Shown here piece by piece: positions 328-14,367 of a DNA stretch of 64,000 nt. The notes under the pieces are model-generated. The model did not search any database, had not been told where the DNA came from, and saw only the letters and a program-made list of their open reading frames with translations. A program made the position numbers and the translations under genes. The DNA lies in assembly GCF_003633725.1 (NCBI RefSeq), contig NZ_RBIJ01000005.1, positions 62,001 through 126,000 on the forward strand, read 5' to 3'. Source of the DNA: Brockia lithotrophica (GTDB taxonomy: Bacteria; Bacillota; Bacilli; Thermicanales; DSM-22653). How positions within the stretch are numbered: the stretch's first letter is position 1; every line of letters begins with the position of its first letter.

Positions 328-1179
328 TTACGCCTTGCCCGACGAGCCGAAGAGGCGCATCTTCGCCTTCACCACGGCCTTGATCGCCTCGCGACCGGGC
401 CCGAGGTACTTCCGCGGGTCGTAGAGGTCGGGTTGTTCCGCGAGCACGCGGCGGACGGCTTCCGTCATCGCCTGCATGTTTTCCGTGTTGATGTTGACCT
501 TCCCCACGCCGACCTCGATCGCCCGCCGAATCTGATCGTCGGGTACCCCAGAGGCGCCGTGCAGGACGACGGGCACGGGGATCTTTTCCGTCACGGCTTG
601 GATGATGTGGTGGCGGATGTTCGGAACGCCCTTGTACACCCCGTGCGCGGTGCCTACGGAAAGGGCGAGGGCGTCAACTCCCGTCTCCTCGTAGAAGCGA
701 ATTCCGTCTTCGGGACGGGCGAGGAGTTCCTCTTCGTTCGTAATCTCATCTTCCGTCCCGCCAATCGCGCCGACTTCCCCTTCTACGGAAACCCCCACCG
801 CACGGGCCATGCGCACGACGAGCTTGGTCTCGCGGATGTTCTCTTCGAGGGAGAGGTGGGATCCGTCGAACATTACGGAGGTAAACCCTGCCCGGATCGC
901 CTGCGCGCACTGCTCGAAGCTCGTCCCGTGGTCGAGGTGCAGGACGACGGGCACGAAGGTCCGTTCCGCGAGCGTTTTCGCGATCGCTACCGCGAGGTCC
1001 CACCCGCCCATGTACTTAATCGCACCTTGGCTCACGCCAAAGATGACCGGCGAACGTTCTTCCTCCGCGGCCTCGATAATCGCCTGGGCGAACTCGAGGT
1101 TGTTCAGGTTGAACTGGCCGACGGCGAACTTCTCCTTGCGTGCGCGCTGCATGAGTTCCGTCATCGATACGAGCGGCAT
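328..1179 (-). CDS. fba: Class II fructose-bisphosphate aldolase
   Basis: A 283-residue class II (zinc) aldolase that interconverts fructose 1,6-bisphosphate with dihydroxyacetone phosphate and glyceraldehyde 3-phosphate. Family marks visible are [11 protein letters not shown] (zinc ligand and active site), [24 protein letters not shown] and the late loop [11 protein letters not shown] followed by VGKVNINT. The frame extends upstream, but the ATG at 1179 has a good GAGGAGGG ribosome binding site and begins with the usual MPLVSM. It follows spo0F and precedes glpX on the same strand, an order resembling B. subtilis pyrG-spo0F-fbaA. With the RuBisCO operon elsewhere in the window it can serve the Calvin cycle as well as glycolysis and gluconeogenesis. 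Confidence 0.95.
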
Positions 1180-1227
1180 GCGGATCCCTCCTCGCAATTG
1201 CTCGGCCGCACAGGGCCACATCCTGTA

Positions 1228-1605
1228 TTATAGCAAAGAATTCGAAGAGGCGCCCCCTCGAAAACGGTCCAAAAGTTCCTTCAAATGCTCTATGTCAAAA
1301 GGTTTCGCCAGGAAGGCGTGCACGCCGAGGCGCTTCGCCTCTTCTTCGATGTCGCGCTCACCGTAGGCCGTCATGAGCACTACGGGAAGGTGGGGATGGG
1401 TCTCGCGGATCTTCCGCAGGAGCTCCAAACCGCTCATCCCCGGAAGCTTGACGTCAAGGAGGAGGAGGTCGGGCGGGCCTTCGGAAAATTTCTCTAAGGC
1501 CTCGCGCGCGTTCCCGGCAAGCACGACCTGAAAGCCCTGCTGCTTGACAACTTCCGCGAGCAAAGCGCGTATCCCGACCTGATCGTCGACGACCATCACG
1601 CGCAT
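1228..1605 (-). CDS. spo0F: Single-domain response regulator, Spo0F-like
   Basis: A stand-alone receiver domain of about 125 residues with no output domain. Counting from the GTG at 1611, the acidic pair is D9-D10, the phosphoacceptor D53 (LLLLDVKLPGMSG), the switch Thr T81 (MTAYGE) and the conserved K103 (AKPFD). Spo0F is the relay protein of the sporulation phosphorelay, taking phosphate from sensor kinases and passing it through Spo0B to Spo0A. Position between pyrG and fba is that of Bacillus spo0F. GTG 1611 is only three bases from the GGGGGG ribosome binding site while ATG 1605 is nine away, so I chose ATG 1605. The sporulation role is inferred from family and location. Confidence 0.85.
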   Translation of the reverse strand: MRVMVVDDQVGIRALLAEVVKQQGFQVVLAGNAREALEKFSEGPPDLLLLDVKLPGMSGLELLRKIRETHPHLPVVLMTAYGERDIEEEAKRLGVHAFLAKPFDIEHLKELLDRFRGGASSNSLL

Positions 1606-1740
1606 TTTCACAAACCCCCCGGAAAAGGATCTCTCGGCCCGTCTTTCGACCTCGCTTTTCCATTATAAGACAAGCTGGGGGGAGGAAAGTTCGGCCAGGG
1701 AAAAGTTGGAAAAAACGTCGCCTTCCTCACGAACGGGAAA

Positions 1741-1773
1741 GAAGCAAAAGAGCCCGAGGATGTCCTCGGGCTC
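1741..1773 (-). terminator. Rho-independent terminator of pyrG
   Basis: Stem GAGCCCGAGGA at 1750-1760 pairs with TCCTCGGGCTC at 1763-1773 around a TG loop. On the minus strand it is followed by TTTTGCTTC. It lies 11 bases beyond the pyrG stop and insulates pyrG from spo0F. Confidence 0.85.
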
Positions 1774-1783
1774 ATCGTGTTGC

Positions 1784-3409
<1,626 letters not shown>

Positions 3410-3446
3410 CTACACCCGCAAGCACCCTCAACCGCACACTCGACAA

Positions 3447-3475
3447 ATTCTAGACCGGGCATTCGTACCCGTCAA
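3447..3475 (-). promoter_or_regulatory. Sigma-A type promoter of pyrG
   Basis: Minus strand: -35 TTGACG (3470-3475), 17-bp spacer, -10 TAGAAT (3447-3452). The -35 hexamer overlaps the rpoE stop codon. The leader to the pyrG ATG is about 85 bases. It does not begin with the GGGC run needed for the reiterative-transcription control known for Bacillus pyrG. Confidence 0.85.
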
Positions 3476-3948
3476 GGGGTTTCTTCTTCCCCCTCGAACT
3501 CTCCGTCCTCCTCCTCGGGAAGCGGGAGCTCTTCGTCGAGCGGTTCCTCGGCGAGGAGATCCTTTTCCAGGTCTTCGAGCACGACCTCGCCTCCCTCCTC
3601 GTCGAGCCCCAGAGGAAGGAGGTCCTCCTCTTCCGCTTCGAGAAGATCTTCCTCGAGTTCGTCTTCTTCTTCGAAGGTGGGAATGAGTTCTTCGTACTTA
3701 TCGAAGGGATACCAGTCCCGAAGTCCCCACTGCCCTCCTCCTACGTGGACGAAGCGCCCGTCTACGTTGAGGGAGGTGTAAAGCTGAGCCATTCGAGCGA
3801 CGTCGTCCGGTGCATATCCCTTTTGCGCAAGGACGCGGGCGGCAATCTCTTCAAACGGCATGGGTTCGTGCTGGGAAAGGCCCACCAAAAGGCGGTACGC
3901 CAGTTCAACCATCGGCGTCTCGCGGACGTACTCCTCCTCCCAACCCAT
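3472..3948 (-). CDS. rpoE: DNA-directed RNA polymerase delta subunit
   Basis: 158 residues. The N-terminal half (about 1-95) is a HARE-HTH domain with METPMVELAYRLL-like sequence, AARVLAQKGY and the conserved end LYTSLNVDGRFVHVGGGQWGLRDWYP. The rest is a long Glu/Asp-rich unstructured tail, as in Bacillus delta. Delta binds RNA polymerase, speeds recycling and lowers non-specific DNA binding. It is typical of Bacilli and sits upstream of pyrG as in B. subtilis. Two ATGs are possible. The GGGAGGG motif abuts the first (3954) and lies six bases from the second (3948), so I chose 3948. A much longer open frame upstream is antisense to speB/speE and is not coding. Confidence 0.9.
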   Translation of the reverse strand: MGWEEEYVRETPMVELAYRLLVGLSQHEPMPFEEIAARVLAQKGYAPDDVARMAQLYTSLNVDGRFVHVGGGQWGLRDWYPFDKYEELIPTFEEEDELEEDLLEAEEEDLLPLGLDEEGGEVVLEDLEKDLLAEEPLDEELPLPEEEDGEFEGEEETP

Positions 3949-8813: not shown

Positions 8814-9482
8814 TTAGGGCAAAGGCGCTTCGCCGGCCAGGTGTCGTGTTAGAATGGGGAGTGCTCGTCGGACGAGTTCATCGGGCGCGAGGCGCGCGTC
8901 GAGGCGGACGAAGCGGGGTTCGGAGCGAACGAGGCGTTCGTAGCCTTCCCGAACGGAGGCGTGGAATGCGGCGTCCAGACGGTCGAAGCGGCTGTAGACC
9001 CGCCCCTCGTCGCGCGTGAGGCGCTCGAGGGCCTCCTCCACGGGGAGGTCGAGGTAAAAGGTGAGAGAAGGCCACAACCCTTCGAGCACGACTTCGTTGA
9101 TCGCGCGTACCCGTTCTACCCCGGCTCCTCGAACCATCCCTTGATACACCAGACTTGAGTCGACGAAGCGGTCCACGAGTACGACGCGCCCGGCCTCGAG
9201 CGCCGGGCGAATCACGCGAACCACGTGCTCACGGCGCACCGCCGCGTAGAAAAGCGCCTCGGTCAGGGGATCGACGTCCGCAGACTCCTCGCTGAGGAGA
9301 AAGGTGCGCACCTGTTCTCCCAGGGGAGTCCCCCCCGGTTCGCGGGTGAACACGACGTCGTACCCGGAGGAGACGAGCTCCTCCCGAAGACGGAGGGCAA
9401 ACGTGGTCTTCCCGGACCCTTCCGGCCCTTCCACGGTAACCAGACGGCGTCGGAGGAGGGTAAGGAGCGTCTCTTCTCCCAC
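8814..9482 (-). CDS. tmk: Thymidylate kinase
   Basis: 222 residues. P-loop VEGPEGSGKTT, then FTREPGGTPLGEQVR, LVDRFVDSSLVYQG (dTMP site) and the LID-region segment RVYSRFDRLDAAFH. It phosphorylates dTMP to dTDP for DNA synthesis. The frame is open further upstream to a TTG at 9518. The GTG at 9482 has AAGGGG seven bases before it and gives a normal N-terminus, so I chose it. In Bacillus tmk lies near holB on the other side of the origin, without a sugar kinase neighbour. About 217 bases of divergent spacer with no convincing promoter separate it from the plus-strand kinase-like gene. Confidence 0.93.
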   Translation of the reverse strand: MGEETLLTLLRRRLVTVEGPEGSGKTTFALRLREELVSSGYDVVFTREPGGTPLGEQVRTFLLSEESADVDPLTEALFYAAVRREHVVRVIRPALEAGRVVLVDRFVDSSLVYQGMVRGAGVERVRAINEVVLEGLWPSLTFYLDLPVEEALERLTRDEGRVYSRFDRLDAAFHASVREGYERLVRSEPRFVRLDARLAPDELVRRALPILTRHLAGEAPLP

Positions 9483-9699
9483 GAAGATTCCCCTTCTTCC
9501 CCTAGATCGTCGTCGCAATCAACCCGAGGCGACGCAGCGGGCAGGGTACGTATTCCTAGGACAACAGGACCAATTTCCCGGTCTCGTTGGCCCAAGAAGC
9601 AGGAAAGTTCCTCGAAATTGCGGAAAGAATACCAGGGAAAGCGGTTTCGAGTACTAGTCTACGAGAACTACGGATTTACGCGTAGAAAGGGAAGCGTCC

Positions 9700-10965
9700 A
9701 TGCCGTCTTTCTTTCCGCCAAAAGACGAGGCAAGTTCGGGGTTCCCGATCCCATACCTCGATCTGTGGCGCGGATTTTTCGAACGGGGAGAGGAGAGGTT
9801 TCCCCGAGCCGAAGTCCGCGACCTCTGGCTTGCCTATCGCGATTCAAACCTTTCTCCCTACCGCGAACCGGAAATCTGGACCGTTCCCGAGGGAGGAGAA
9901 GGGCAAAAGGAGTGCCGCCGTGTCGTGGAATCCCTCGTTCGGGAACTCGTACGTGCCGGGGAGGCCGGGTTTCTCCTCGCGTGCGTAGAGGCGACGGGCG
10001 TCGCGTCGGCAACCGCGGCCGATCCGGAAGGGACCACGTTTTCCGAACGTCCGTTTGAAATTCGACCGGGAACCGTGCTCGCCTTCCCTCCCTATCCGCC
10101 CACGGCCTACGCCCTTGTGCGCCGTGGGGGAGCGGCGACCTGGCTCGTGGGCGCGGAGCACCCCCACGTGGCCTGGCACCGCTCTACGTCGTTGGCCGTA
10201 TCCCTTCCCGGATCGGCACACAGGACGCTGGTGGCCTTCTTCCGGGGCTACCCCCCCGTACGCCGGATCGCCACCGCGATCCTCGCCGCCCTTCCGCGCC
10301 TCTCTCCCTCCGGAAGTTCGGAACCTCAGCCGCGACCCCAGTCTTCGCCGTTTACGGCTCTGCGGCCGCTCTTTTCGTTTCTCGCCCACGAAATCTTCAA
10401 TCCCCTCACGCACATCCGCGGATTCCTCGAACTGCACGCGAAGGGTGGGGAGCGCGAAGCGCTTTTGCGTGACGCCACACACATCGAACGGACGCTCCGC
10501 GCCTTTCTCCTCCTTTCGGATCCCCAGGGCAAAGAGGGGGAGTCCGTGGTAGACTTCCGCGTCCTCCTGCGCACGGCCGTTGACCAGGCGGCCCGTATTT
10601 CCCCACTCGCCGTCGCCTTGCCGCAAAAGCCGCTCCTCGTACGCGGGGATCCGCTTCGCCTGGAAATCGGATTGCACCTCGCGCTCACCTGGCTTCAGAT
10701 GCTCGGCGACCCCTTCCCCTCCCTTGTAAGCGGAACGAAGGAAGAAGAGGCGTTTTTGCGGCTGGGAGGAACGGGCCCCGTGCCCCGGAGTGCGCCGCCG
10801 GGAGAATCGACGTTGGGGCAGGGTCTGGAGGCCGAGGAGGTCCTCTTTGCCCTCGCCACACGCCTCCTCAGCGAAGGTGGAGCCCGCGTCGACCCGCCGG
10901 AGGCCGAAGGGGAGGGGTGGCGCGTCACCGTACGTTTTCCCCTCGCGCAAAAGGCAAATCCCTAA
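9700..10965 (+). CDS. Degenerate sensor-kinase-like protein with intact H-box
   Basis: 421 residues, soluble, no membrane segment. The N-terminal 200 residues are not recognised. Residues 226-245 carry a histidine-kinase H-box (FLAHEIFNPLTHIRGFLELH, H230) of the type found in sporulation kinases. The expected ATPase domain follows but is eroded: LRLEIGLHLALTWLQ lacks the N-box Asn, no DxGxG motif is seen, and only a remnant of the final GGxRV..GEGWxVTVxFPL strands remains. It probably cannot bind ATP by itself. It could accept and pass on phosphate like Spo0B, whose ATPase fold is also degenerate; that is inference. Its stop overlaps the convergent M16 peptidase stop by four bases. Confidence 0.6.
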   Translation: MPSFFPPKDEASSGFPIPYLDLWRGFFERGEERFPRAEVRDLWLAYRDSNLSPYREPEIWTVPEGGEGQKECRRVVESLVRELVRAGEAGFLLACVEATGVASATAADPEGTTFSERPFEIRPGTVLAFPPYPPTAYALVRRGGAATWLVGAEHPHVAWHRSTSLAVSLPGSAHRTLVAFFRGYPPVRRIATAILAALPRLSPSGSSEPQPRPQSSPFTALRPLFSFLAHEIFNPLTHIRGFLELHAKGGEREALLRDATHIERTLRAFLLLSDPQGKEGESVVDFRVLLRTAVDQAARISPLAVALPQKPLLVRGDPLRLEIGLHLALTWLQMLGDPFPSLVSGTKEEEAFLRLGGTGPVPRSAPPGESTLGQGLEAEEVLFALATRLLSEGGARVDPPEAEGEGWRVTVRFPLAQKANP

Positions 10966-13865
10966 AAGCCCTTTCCCCCGGGCAAAAGGTTTGTGTGCCG
11001 AACAAACCGTCCGTGGGCGATGAGCGCGTCCTTAGGCCCTAGGGCGACGACGCGTCCTTCGCGGGCAAACGCTTCAAGGTAAGGTACGTACGCCCGCAGA
11101 TCTTTTGGCGTCGTCGCAAGGACTTCGGCCCGCCGTGCGTCGAGCTCTTCGGGCGTGATCCCCGAAAAGTATTCCGCATCGCCGCGTTCTCCTTGAAGGG
11201 GGGGGCTGAGGGGTTGGTCAAGGCGGGCGATCGTGCCCAAGATGAGGTCGTGCATGTCCTCGTCCCCGAGGTCAACCTCCCGGAGGAAGGACACCGCCTC
11301 ATCGTAGACGAGGATCGTCTCTTCGAGGTGGGGATCGCGGTACGAGCTCATCACGAGGCGGCCCAGACGGTCGATGCGGGCGAATGCACCGTATGCCCCG
11401 CCTTCTACGCGCACGCGGTTCCAGAGGTACTCGAGGCGGAGGAGCTGCTCGAGGACGTAGGCAGAACCGCGGTGCTCGTACCCAAGAGGTGCGAGGTCGA
11501 GCCCCTTGGCGACGTAAAACACGTCCGCGGCGGAAAGCAGAGCCTCGTCTGCGGCGGGCAAAAGCGCGGGAAGCACACCCTCCACCGGCTCTCGGTTCGG
11601 AAGGGAAGCGAGAAGGGGCGCAAACGCCGTCCGGACGGTGTCCACAAGGTCGGGGTCTGCCGTAAAGGAGACGACGGCGGGAACGCGGAAGAGCTCGCGG
11701 TAGACGCGCTCCGTTTCCCGGGCGGCTGCGGCGAGCGCCTCTTCCCCCTTTTCGAGGAGCGCCCGTAACCAGAGGATGTGTTCCACGCCGCCGGTCCGCT
11801 CCAAGACCGCGGCTGCAGGACTCATCTGCGCGAGAAGGCGCTGGGAGGCGACGAGGTGCCCGCGCGGAACGAGGTCGGATTCCAGTCGGGCGAGCCTCTC
11901 GCGTAGACGTTCGGCGAACTGGGGGAACGCGGAGATACGCGTCCCCGTGGCGATTTCCTCCATGAGCCCCGCCAAGCGGGGAAGCTCTTCGGCCAAGGCG
12001 CGGCCCCGGAGTGCCAGGTGAAGTTCTGGTTTCCCCTTCGCCCGTTCGTAGACCGCAATCGACGCGCTTACACCGCCCGTATGGCGATCGAGGAGTTCGG
12101 CCAGCGTCTCGGCGTCGTGCGCCTCCGTCGGCATGCGGCTGAGGAGAGAGGGAAGAAGGCCCGCGTAGAAGAGGTCCTCGGGGGCGAGCGAGGCGAGCGA
12201 CACGTACAGGGATACGTAGGCAATCCGTCGGGTAGGGATCGGGTGCAGGAGGATCACCCCGCCTCCTTCGCGGATGACCTCCGTAGGGACCTTAGGAGCG
12301 GATCGCGGTACGTCGTGGAGGGCGAGGCGGGGAAGGAGGGCCTTGGCTTCGGGCGGGTCCGGCGTCCGCTGCTTTTCCACAAGCTCGGCCGTGCGCCGAC
12401 GCAGTTCCTCCTGTGCGGATGGGGAAAGGCTCGCAAAGGAGTGGCGGAGGACGGAGGTAAGGGCCGCCTCCTTAGCCTGGGCGAGTCCGGGCTTGGGTTC
12501 GAGGACGACGAGCGCCTGATGCGTCCCCCGAAGGAAGAGTCGGGAGAGGAGGTCGGTAAAGAATCCCGTGGGGGTGCGCATGCGGATGTCTTCCAGCACG
12601 GCGGAGAAGTTGAGCGGTTCCAAGGGGTCGCCGTCGTACCGCCAACTCCGAAGCGCTTCGAGGAGGTAGACGAGTCCCTTCGGGTAGCTCCCCGTGTCGG
12701 CCTCCCGAAGCTCGAAGAGCTTGCGCGTGAGAGCCGCCTGAAGCAGCCCCAGGGGGATCTCCTCGCGGACGAGGCGCTCCACGGCGTCGCGCGCCGCGGC
12801 AAAAAAGGCAAAGGCTTGCCCTTCCGGTATTCCCTTGCCCACGAGGGCGAAGTAGGGCTGGCGAACGTCCGCCTCCACGTAGGCGTAGACGTCCTTAACG
12901 AGCCCGGTGCCGAGAAGGGCTTGCCGAAGCGGTGCGGCGGGACGGTTGACGAGGGCGTAGGCGAGGATTTCTAAGGCAAATACCCACAACGTGTCCCGTG
13001 CTTCCTCGCCGAGGACGCTCCCCCATGCGGCGTAGGTTTCCCCCTTTTCTTCGCCTTCCGGCAGGGGATAGGCTTCGAGAACCACCCGTGGGGTGGGGAA
13101 AGGAGGCTGTAGCGGGGGAAGGGGGGTCGGAGCCTTATGGGAAAAGTGGCGCAGCGCGCGATCCTCGAGAAACTCCAGCACTTCCTCCGCAGCCAAATCC
13201 CCGTATACGAGGAACAGGGCATTTCCGGGATGGTAGTGCTCTTCGTGGTAGCGGACGAAGGCTTCCTGCGTAAGGCCGGGAATTGCGTCCGGGTCACCGC
13301 CGGAGTCGAAGCGGTATACCGTATCGGGGTAAAGGGCACGTTCGAGGGCACGGGAAAGTCGGGCTTCCGGTTGGGAGTACGCCCCCTTCATCTCGTTGTA
13401 CACGACGCCGCGGATGTGCGGCTCGCCGTCCTCGACGTGCAGGTGCCACCCCTCCTGCATGAGGATGGTAGGGTCCTCGTGGAGGCGGGGGAAGAACACG
13501 CCGTCGAGGTAGACGTCCATGAGGTTGAAGAGGTCTTTGGCCACACGGCTCGCCACGGGGTAGACGGTCTTGTCCGGGTAGGTCATGGCGTTTAAAAAGG
13601 TGTTGAGGGACCCCTTGGCGAGGGCGACGAACGGCTCTTTCAGGGGAAACCGGCGCGAACCGTTGAGCACCGAATGTTCAAGGATGTGCGGAAGTCCCGT
13701 GTCGTCGGGCGGCGGCGTGCGGAAGGCGGCCGCAAACACCTTGTTGTCGTCGTTCGTTTCGAGGAAAAGAACGGGGGCACCCGTCGCTTCGTGGACGAAG
13801 ATCTTGGCCACGGCACCGATGTCTGCGGCACTTTCGTGCCTTACCTGCACGTACCCACGCGGCAT
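10962..13865 (-). CDS. M16C-family zinc metallopeptidase (presequence-protease type)
   Basis: 967 residues, the size of two tandem M16 repeats (four homologous domains). The inverted zinc motif is H60-x-x-E-H64 in GLPHILEH, preceded by PPPDDTG and followed by GSRRFPLKEPF and LNTFLNAMTYPDKTVYP. The distal Glu segment is GVVYNEMKGAYS. Such cytosolic peptidases degrade unfolded peptides; Bacillus-type homologues and organellar PreP belong here. ATG 13865 has GGGGGAG nine bases upstream; the open frame before it is antisense. It begins one base after the bactofilin stop, so it forms an operon with the M23 peptidase and bactofilin. The link to cell-envelope work is unproven. Confidence 0.9.
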   Translation of the reverse strand: MPRGYVQVRHESAADIGAVAKIFVHEATGAPVLFLETNDDNKVFAAAFRTPPPDDTGLPHILEHSVLNGSRRFPLKEPFVALAKGSLNTFLNAMTYPDKTVYPVASRVAKDLFNLMDVYLDGVFFPRLHEDPTILMQEGWHLHVEDGEPHIRGVVYNEMKGAYSQPEARLSRALERALYPDTVYRFDSGGDPDAIPGLTQEAFVRYHEEHYHPGNALFLVYGDLAAEEVLEFLEDRALRHFSHKAPTPLPPLQPPFPTPRVVLEAYPLPEGEEKGETYAAWGSVLGEEARDTLWVFALEILAYALVNRPAAPLRQALLGTGLVKDVYAYVEADVRQPYFALVGKGIPEGQAFAFFAAARDAVERLVREEIPLGLLQAALTRKLFELREADTGSYPKGLVYLLEALRSWRYDGDPLEPLNFSAVLEDIRMRTPTGFFTDLLSRLFLRGTHQALVVLEPKPGLAQAKEAALTSVLRHSFASLSPSAQEELRRRTAELVEKQRTPDPPEAKALLPRLALHDVPRSAPKVPTEVIREGGGVILLHPIPTRRIAYVSLYVSLASLAPEDLFYAGLLPSLLSRMPTEAHDAETLAELLDRHTGGVSASIAVYERAKGKPELHLALRGRALAEELPRLAGLMEEIATGTRISAFPQFAERLRERLARLESDLVPRGHLVASQRLLAQMSPAAAVLERTGGVEHILWLRALLEKGEEALAAAARETERVYRELFRVPAVVSFTADPDLVDTVRTAFAPLLASLPNREPVEGVLPALLPAADEALLSAADVFYVAKGLDLAPLGYEHRGSAYVLEQLLRLEYLWNRVRVEGGAYGAFARIDRLGRLVMSSYRDPHLEETILVYDEAVSFLREVDLGDEDMHDLILGTIARLDQPLSPPLQGERGDAEYFSGITPEELDARRAEVLATTPKDLRAYVPYLEAFAREGRVVALGPKDALIAHGRFVRHTNLLPGGKGF

Positions 13866-13866
13866 C

Positions 13867-14367
13867 TCACGAGACTCCCCCTTCGTTCGGCATCTCTGTG
13901 TCCGTACCTTCCTTTGCAACCTCCGATTCCTCGCGGTTCCGCCCGATGCGGCGCGCGTAAAAGTCGCCGGCGGTTCCAACGGGCGTACCCGCTTCCAAAG
14001 GTTCCTCTTCGAGGCGTTGGAACGTCCCGACGAGATGTGCCCCTTCTTCGACGACAAGGTCTCGATAGTGGAGCTCGCCTTCAAAACGAGATCCCCGGCG
14101 CAGGATTACGGTTCCCTCGGCAATGAGCTTTCCCCGAAACCGCCCCGAAATCTGCGCACCTTGCGCCCAAACGTCGCCCTCCACTTGACCGGAAGGACCG
14201 ACGATGAGCTCTCCTTGACAGTGAATGTCCCCGCGAAAGCTCCCGTCCATACGCACGGCCGCCTCGCTCGCGAGCGTACCCTCGACACGTGTCGAAGCGT
14301 CGAGGTACGTCACCCGTCCTTCCCCTGCGGGACGCTCAGTCGAGGGGCCTTTCTTCCGAGACAGCAT
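13867..14367 (-). CDS. Bactofilin (polymer-forming cytoskeletal protein)
   Basis: 166 residues. The central part is a beta-helical bactofilin domain with repeating short strands and Gly turns: LDASTRVEGTL, VRMDGSFRGDI, GELIVGPSGQVEGDV, AQISGRFRGKL, EGTVILRRGSRFEGEL. Tails on both sides are charged and probably disordered. Bactofilins self-assemble into filaments without nucleotide and place cell-wall enzymes; the adjacency of a bactofilin and an M23 endopeptidase is known (Helicobacter CcmA with Csd1). GGAGGTG lies seven bases before ATG 14367, so the in-frame TTG at 14382 is not used. The gene overlaps the M23 gene by 32 bases and is followed after one base by the M16 peptidase. Confidence 0.9.
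   Translation of the reverse strand: MLSRKKGPSTERPAGEGRVTYLDASTRVEGTLASEAAVRMDGSFRGDIHCQGELIVGPSGQVEGDVWAQGAQISGRFRGKLIAEGTVILRRGSRFEGELHYRDLVVEEGAHLVGTFQRLEEEPLEAGTPVGTAGDFYARRIGRNREESEVAKEGTDTEMPNEGGVS

Follow-up and report, generated by a model that had tools for sequence, protein, structure and literature searches.

A predicted histidine pseudokinase with an AcoR/DhaR-type GAF domain at a conserved locus of Brockia lithotrophica and its relatives

To our knowledge, few natural examples of histidine pseudokinases have been described. DivL keeps its catalytic (CA) domain, with a tyrosine in place of the phospho-acceptor histidine. In the excerpted text of PMC9491836, DivL requires neither its ATPase domain nor a phospho-residue, and a ChrS pseudokinase acts without a histidine of its own; an excerpt of PMC12826061 presents Spo0B as possibly descended from a kinase stripped of its sensor and ATP-binding domains. 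No description of a histidine pseudokinase in the Spo0 phosphorelay was found in our searches of the open-licence literature. Brockia lithotrophica, a spore-former according to an excerpt of PMC10215811, carries a gene whose predicted product is a cytosolic histidine pseudokinase, a known kind of protein with an unexpected metabolic sensor. This gene, hereafter X, lies in the window, the whole stretch of 64,000 nucleotides that was analysed, between two genes that serve as synteny anchors:

8814-9518, minus strand: divergent neighbour of X, which we take to be a thymidylate kinase gene (tmk)
9700-10965, plus strand: gene X, 421 aa, ATG start, predicted AcoR-type GAF, DHp and pseudo-catalytic domains
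10962-14084, minus strand: convergent neighbour of X, presumably a large PreP-like Zn-protease homologue

Like DivL, RetS and the CA-frameshift form of ChrS, X has the architecture of a histidine kinase without kinase function and is probably a modulator; it differs from them in keeping the histidine in four of five orthologues, in the apparent loss of the ATP site and in its input domain. With KinA to KinE it shares the H-box pattern HExxNPLT..RGF and the status of an orphan gene, and in the window's genus four of six recognition residues, a level that two paired kinases also reach; unlike these kinases, it has no ATP-binding boxes, and an AcoR-type GAF domain stands where they have PAS domains. 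Spo0B likewise joins a histidine-bearing DHp to an ATP-blind CA-like domain, whereas X carries a sensor domain, resembles kinases in its recognition residues and lies at another locus, in a genome that holds a Spo0B-type gene besides.

X is a real open reading frame, as judged from the ORF call and from orthologues and synteny in four of the five other genomes of the order: a congener of the window's genus (probably Brockia), Hydrogenibacillus sp. Bu13, H. schlegelii MA 48 and Ca. Carbobacillus altaicus AL32. The order tmk - X - PreP-like protease recurs there within a block, speB-speE-PBP-ROK-tmk-X-PreP-bactofilin-M23 by the names that we presume for its genes, which is kept in all four genomes; the remaining genome, G005, from another family of the order, has no X orthologue. 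An antisense frame at 9844-10950 was rejected as the true gene, having no Pfam match where the plus-strand frame has orthologues. X shares 4 bases (10962-10965) with its convergent PreP-like neighbour where their stop codons meet, as it does in the congener. A search for plasmid or viral relatives of X found none. Upstream of X no sporulation promoter was identified; a sigma-H or Spo0A-box candidate, judged by eye, was discarded for its wrong spacing, and a search for a sigma-70-type site found none.

The protein is 83% identical to that of the congener and 23-28% identical over the full length to the three others (24-33% in the five-row alignment). In comparison with the congener, dN/dS is 0.18 for the whole gene (tmk, 0.100), and by part it is 0.235 in the GAF domain, 0.69 in the linker, 0.092 in the DHp and 0.084 in the C-terminal domain. 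X is under purifying selection and is not decaying, since the ratio is 0.18 overall and 0.084 even in the degenerate C-terminus. The confinement of X to one bacterial family, its strong divergence across genera and the loss of both H and E in H. schlegelii would fit a kinase relic on its way out; we nevertheless consider a relic very improbable, given a frame that is open at the same locus in all five family members and a constraint of 0.08-0.09 in the DHp and C-terminus, similar to that of tmk.

The catalytic half of the protein begins with the helix pair that carries the H-box:

10363-10539, plus strand: DHp (HisKA) two-helix segment, residues 222-280, from HisKA matches, alignment, family profile and model
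10387-10401, plus strand: H230-E-I-F-N234, with the phospho-acceptor His, E (H+1) and N (H+4)
10540-10962, plus strand: residues 281-421, predicted pseudo-catalytic (CA) domain in which the N, G1, F and G2 boxes are missing, dN/dS 0.084

We read E (H+1) and N (H+4) as the HisKA phosphatase motif, a meaning that we assume. The H-box HEIFNPLTHIRGF is intact, with the H230 codon CAC at 10387-10389; its sequence reads LAHEIFNPLTHIRGFLEL, in which the His is residue 230. The only Pfam match of X is HisKA (residues 224-274, E 1.7e-4, under the gathering score), and the same family is matched in all five members (best E 4.4e-8). The solved structure that best matches the family profile is Geobacillus KinB (3d36, E 1.5e-5, in the H-box region), so that the conserved HExxNPLT box pointed out in an earlier note on this DNA is borne out as a helix of the sporulation-kinase type. 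That note had also taken the His as retained, which proves not to be universal. The phospho-acceptor His stands in an HExxN/TP context in four of the five orthologues, together with E at H+1, and N at H+4 occurs in all five; in H. schlegelii (L005) the box is ADRLRNPLAT, with D-R replacing H-E while the Asn stays. Phosphotransfer therefore cannot be the function common to all five proteins.

Downstream of the DHp, Pfam gave no HATPase_c match in X at E<=10, and none of the 13 HATPase_c places in its own genome (1.87 Mb, 12 contigs) corresponds to X. When the five orthologues were aligned with 8 canonical histidine kinases, out of nine sought, the Mg-binding Asn of the N-box, the G1 Asp, the F box with its lid and the G2 glycines were absent from all five, which upholds the claim that the N, G1 and G2 boxes are lost and extends it to the F box. 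X thus appears, from its sequence, unable to bind ATP. The CA fold is read from a low-confidence orthologue model, since none of the five post-DHp pieces matched a histidine-kinase profile at E<=10. That model depicts the Hydrogenibacillus orthologue (mean pLDDT 44); among the matches listed, its residues 330-462 resemble histidine-kinase CA domains, the best with Z 9.7 over 114 residues at 3.3 A; neither Spo0B nor ChpT is named among the Foldseek and VIA matches listed, which is uninformative. The C-terminal domain seems to have kept the CA fold and lost the ATP site. That X is still active as a kinase through a highly unusual ATP site is hardly credible: the fold retained in the low-confidence model would allow it, and the Mg-binding Asn, the G1 Asp, the F box and the lid are missing in five of five. 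What we found, a histidine-kinase fold (from the low-confidence orthologue model) without catalytic residues and under selection, is one part of what defines a histidine pseudokinase, and we propose that X is a cytosolic one, composed of an AcoR-type GAF, a DHp and a pseudo-catalytic domain.

The N-terminal half was said earlier to match nothing familiar over its 200 residues; it proves recognisable by profiles, hhalign, reverse search, Foldseek and VIA:

9751-9849, plus strand: residues 18-50, N-terminal helical segment in which P18, W23, F26-F27, R36 and W43 are invariant
9880-10314, plus strand: predicted AcoR/DhaR-type GAF domain, residues 61-205, from profile, hhalign, reverse search, Foldseek and VIA
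10150-10164, plus strand: residues 151-155, GAEHP, a motif that all five orthologues share unchanged and the counterpart of xEH in AcoR-type GAFs

Residues 18-50 match the lead-in W..F.......VR.E.L.SW.R of AcoR-type activators, and the core motif VGAEHP....H..T..A of the GAF domain is invariant in all five proteins, unlike the H-box, than which it is better conserved across the family. When the full-length family profile was searched against 299 genomes of the class, the matches listed outside the family were mostly kinases, matched at the H-box; at least two of those listed matched in the N-domain, L012 (E 2.4e-11, model positions 26-202) and a protein of genome G054 (E 1.3e-7), both sigma-54 activators of AcoR/DhaR layout. 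Comparison of the X family with AcoR-type activators by hhalign gave 96% over columns 25-180. The reverse search with the N-domain of L012, run in six genomes with E-values for one genome each, returned the congener (5.4e-5), the window's X (1.8e-3) and H. schlegelii (9.9e-3), plus true activators. A profile of activator N-domains (35 loci taken, 32 with a sigma-54 ORF, 29 used) scored all five X proteins above 5000 shuffles, the window's X narrowly so (5.9 bits, best shuffle 4.7). The homology runs along the whole N-domain, beyond the motif, and is weak in the window sequence taken by itself. A family-only N-domain profile searched against the PDB returned no DhaR and nothing meaningful (best E 0.75); a DhaR match at E 4.1e-7 was set aside as independent support, the profile behind it having contained two sigma-54 activators. 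In the structure model of X, of low confidence (mean pLDDT 44), Foldseek ranks three E. coli DhaR(N) chains (4lrx, 4lrz, 4lry) highest, and VIA places DhaR(N) at Z 11.9-12.0 over 152-153 residues alongside effector domains of the IclR type, which reach Z 12.3. It is the profile matches, the reverse search and the DhaR(N)-like low-confidence model, taken together, that lead us to assign the N-terminus as a divergent AcoR/DhaR-type GAF.

The homology to AcoR/DhaR-type sigma-54 activators covers the N-terminal lead-in helices and the GAF domain with its EH motif. In contrast to these activators, X has neither the AAA+ sigma-54 interaction domain nor the Fis HTH, its GAF is joined to a core of histidine-kinase type, and their GTN is replaced by PPT (PVT in L003). 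No other copy of an AcoR-type GAF was seen in the window's own genome or in that of the congener. Elsewhere the domain is promiscuous: it is fused to HD-GYP in L120 and L121 and to a LuxR-type HTH in L122, L124, L133 and L134, all six without sigma-54 domains and with outputs named by eye. A similar layout is that of L142 (positions 705-3575, minus strand, in G015, a genome from elsewhere in the Bacilli), which likewise sets an AcoR-type GAF N-terminal to a sporulation-kinase-like core, with recognition residues TSGFQF; unlike X, it has 956 aa, three PAS domains before its HisKA and an HATPase_c with intact ATP boxes. Three kinases of another family (L013, L017, L019) have an N-terminal region of about 200 aa with an EHPW motif (L013) or a similar one, whose likeness to AcoR-type GAFs by eye did not beat shuffles.

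A Spo0F-like regulator had been placed 8 kb from X, and the window indeed holds one:

1228-1611, minus strand: Spo0F-like single receiver protein of 127 aa, a lone receiver domain about 8.1 kb from X

It is likely a phosphorelay component. X itself is solitary, the nearest response-regulator gene being 8 kb off. The genome also carries Spo0A (TIGR02875, 352.8 bits) and a SPOB_a protein at the canonical site between the L27 (rpmA) and obg genes, the locus signature for Spo0B in the part of PMC6136694 that deals with it. A Spo0B-type gene occupies this locus in five other genomes of the order as well; the SPOB_a cut-off of Pfam is passed in five of the six genomes, and H. schlegelii (G003) falls just under. 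In four genomes of the order (L073, L074, L077, L078) the L27 and Spo0B-type genes flank a small opposite-strand ORF with the motif (D/N)P.LPL.LYP.LV, which was not seen in the two of the window's genus. A receiver-like protein with an apparent Fis-type HTH at its end, L072 (781-2004, plus strand), has no kinase match nearby.

The earlier note had suggested a Spo0B-like phosphotransferase or a phosphatase or scaffold. A role other than that of a kinase stands, and a phosphatase or scaffold is plausible; the Spo0B part is weakened by the genome's own SPOB_a gene, by the recognition residues and by the loss of His. No match of X to SPOB_a (PF14689) was obtained up to E 10, where other genes match, and X lies between tmk and the PreP-like gene and not at the L27-obg locus, which another gene fills; membership of Spo0B was accordingly rejected. 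A forward relay from Spo0F~P through X~P to Spo0A would suit the Spo0B layout, a DHp with His followed by an ATP-blind CA fold as in X, and is nonetheless very improbable beside a Spo0B-type gene already in place in this genome and five others, recognition residues that agree with Spo0B at just two of six positions, and an H. schlegelii protein without His.

The six residues that distinguish sporulation kinases from Spo0B are those of Table 1 in PMC6136694, as excerpted, and their offsets (H+7, 8, 11, 12, 14, 15) are our own, from aligning TAGFQL to the H-box. On this scale the window's X reads THGFEL, four of six to the tabulated B. subtilis sporulation kinases and two of six to Spo0B; the orthologues read THGFEL, TTGYAH, ATGYAA and TAGYAW, those of other genera agreeing with the kinases at one to three positions of six, and the genome's own Spo0B reads QLGYAL. 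Agreement at four of six is weak, non-discriminating evidence, because two kinases paired with response regulators (L051 and L056) reach it too. The orphan kinase L002 has TAGFQL, as the same table gives for KinA and KinE. This orphan PAS kinase (1057-2148, plus strand) lies on the same contig, about 7 kb past the end of the window, and by its sequence it is the strongest candidate in this genome for a Spo0F kinase.

The DHp of the X family was scored pairwise against 8 of the 13 HATPase_c places of the genome (2 orphans and 6 paired with response regulators). The comparison omits L057-L061, of which L057, L058, L060 and L061, some of whose frames may be wrong, showed no HisKA-type H-box, and L059 has 203 aa. 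For the window's X both orphans rank first and second (z 15.9 and 10.7), L002 being the nearest, ahead of all six paired kinases, and likewise for the congener. Among the same eight kinases, one orphan ranks first for Bu13, L002 ranks first for Carbobacillus with two paired kinases almost equal, and a paired kinase ranks first for H. schlegelii.

We tentatively propose, with somewhat less than even confidence, that X is a ligand-gated pseudokinase that engages the sporulation phosphorelay by competing for or draining Spo0F. Having no apparent ATP binding and the input domain of a metabolic regulator, it probably tunes the signalling chain rather than starting it. Binding of a protein or a small metabolite to the GAF domain would switch the DHp between states that do and do not engage the phosphorelay; X, unable to phosphorylate itself, would lower or time the flux to Spo0A by occupying or draining Spo0F or Spo0F~P. 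Where H, E and N are all present, in four lineages, X could in addition accept phosphate back from Spo0F~P or dephosphorylate it. The H. schlegelii protein, with neither H nor E, would be left with binding alone, so that the common function would be ligand-gated partner engagement and not forward phosphotransfer. This proposition is supported by KinB as the best solved match, by the orphan-like DHp, by the presence of Spo0F-like, Spo0A and Spo0B-type genes, and by a constraint on the DHp and C-terminus (0.092, 0.084) that resembles that of tmk (0.100). The two points that suggest a link between X and Spo0F are their distance and the residue similarity. Sequence and models establish the domain make-up, the loss of the ATP boxes in all five proteins, the conserved locus and purifying selection; the ligand, the partner and the direction of effect are what we infer.

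The proximity of the window and congener DHp to orphan kinases would also suit a protein that acts like RetS or DivL, binding or heterodimerising with an orphan kinase (L002 or L054) and switching it on or off without touching Spo0F. Such a mode has precedent in the excerpts of PMC9491836, and the kinase regions of RetS and DivL are among the listed CA-fold matches of the orthologue model, as any CA fold would give; the similarity being generic, we regard this as rather unlikely. A target outside sporulation, either another response regulator or a metabolic enzyme in the way that DhaR binds DhaK or DhaL, has a limited probability. It would agree with recognition residues that fall to one to three of six outside the window's genus, with the paired kinase that scores best for H. 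schlegelii, and with the matched DhaR(N) structures, which by their titles are complexes with DhaK or DhaL; against it stand the two orphan kinases that rank first in the window's genus and KinB as the best solved relative.

Within our proposal that X engages the phosphorelay, a narrower and doubtful version is that of a metabolite-gated brake, in which the AcoR-type GAF on an ATP-blind sporulation-kinase core would signal a carbon or redox metabolite directly to Spo0F with no ATP-dependent step. If so, the GAF domain would have been transplanted from metabolic sigma-54 control, and genomes of the window's genus would retain no AcoR-type domain besides it. Among thermophilic spore-formers the X family keeps to a single locus and has a metabolic sensor domain that can be recognised, and one species has lost the His; in this natural series one can ask what a kinase must retain once the ability to phosphorylate is gone.
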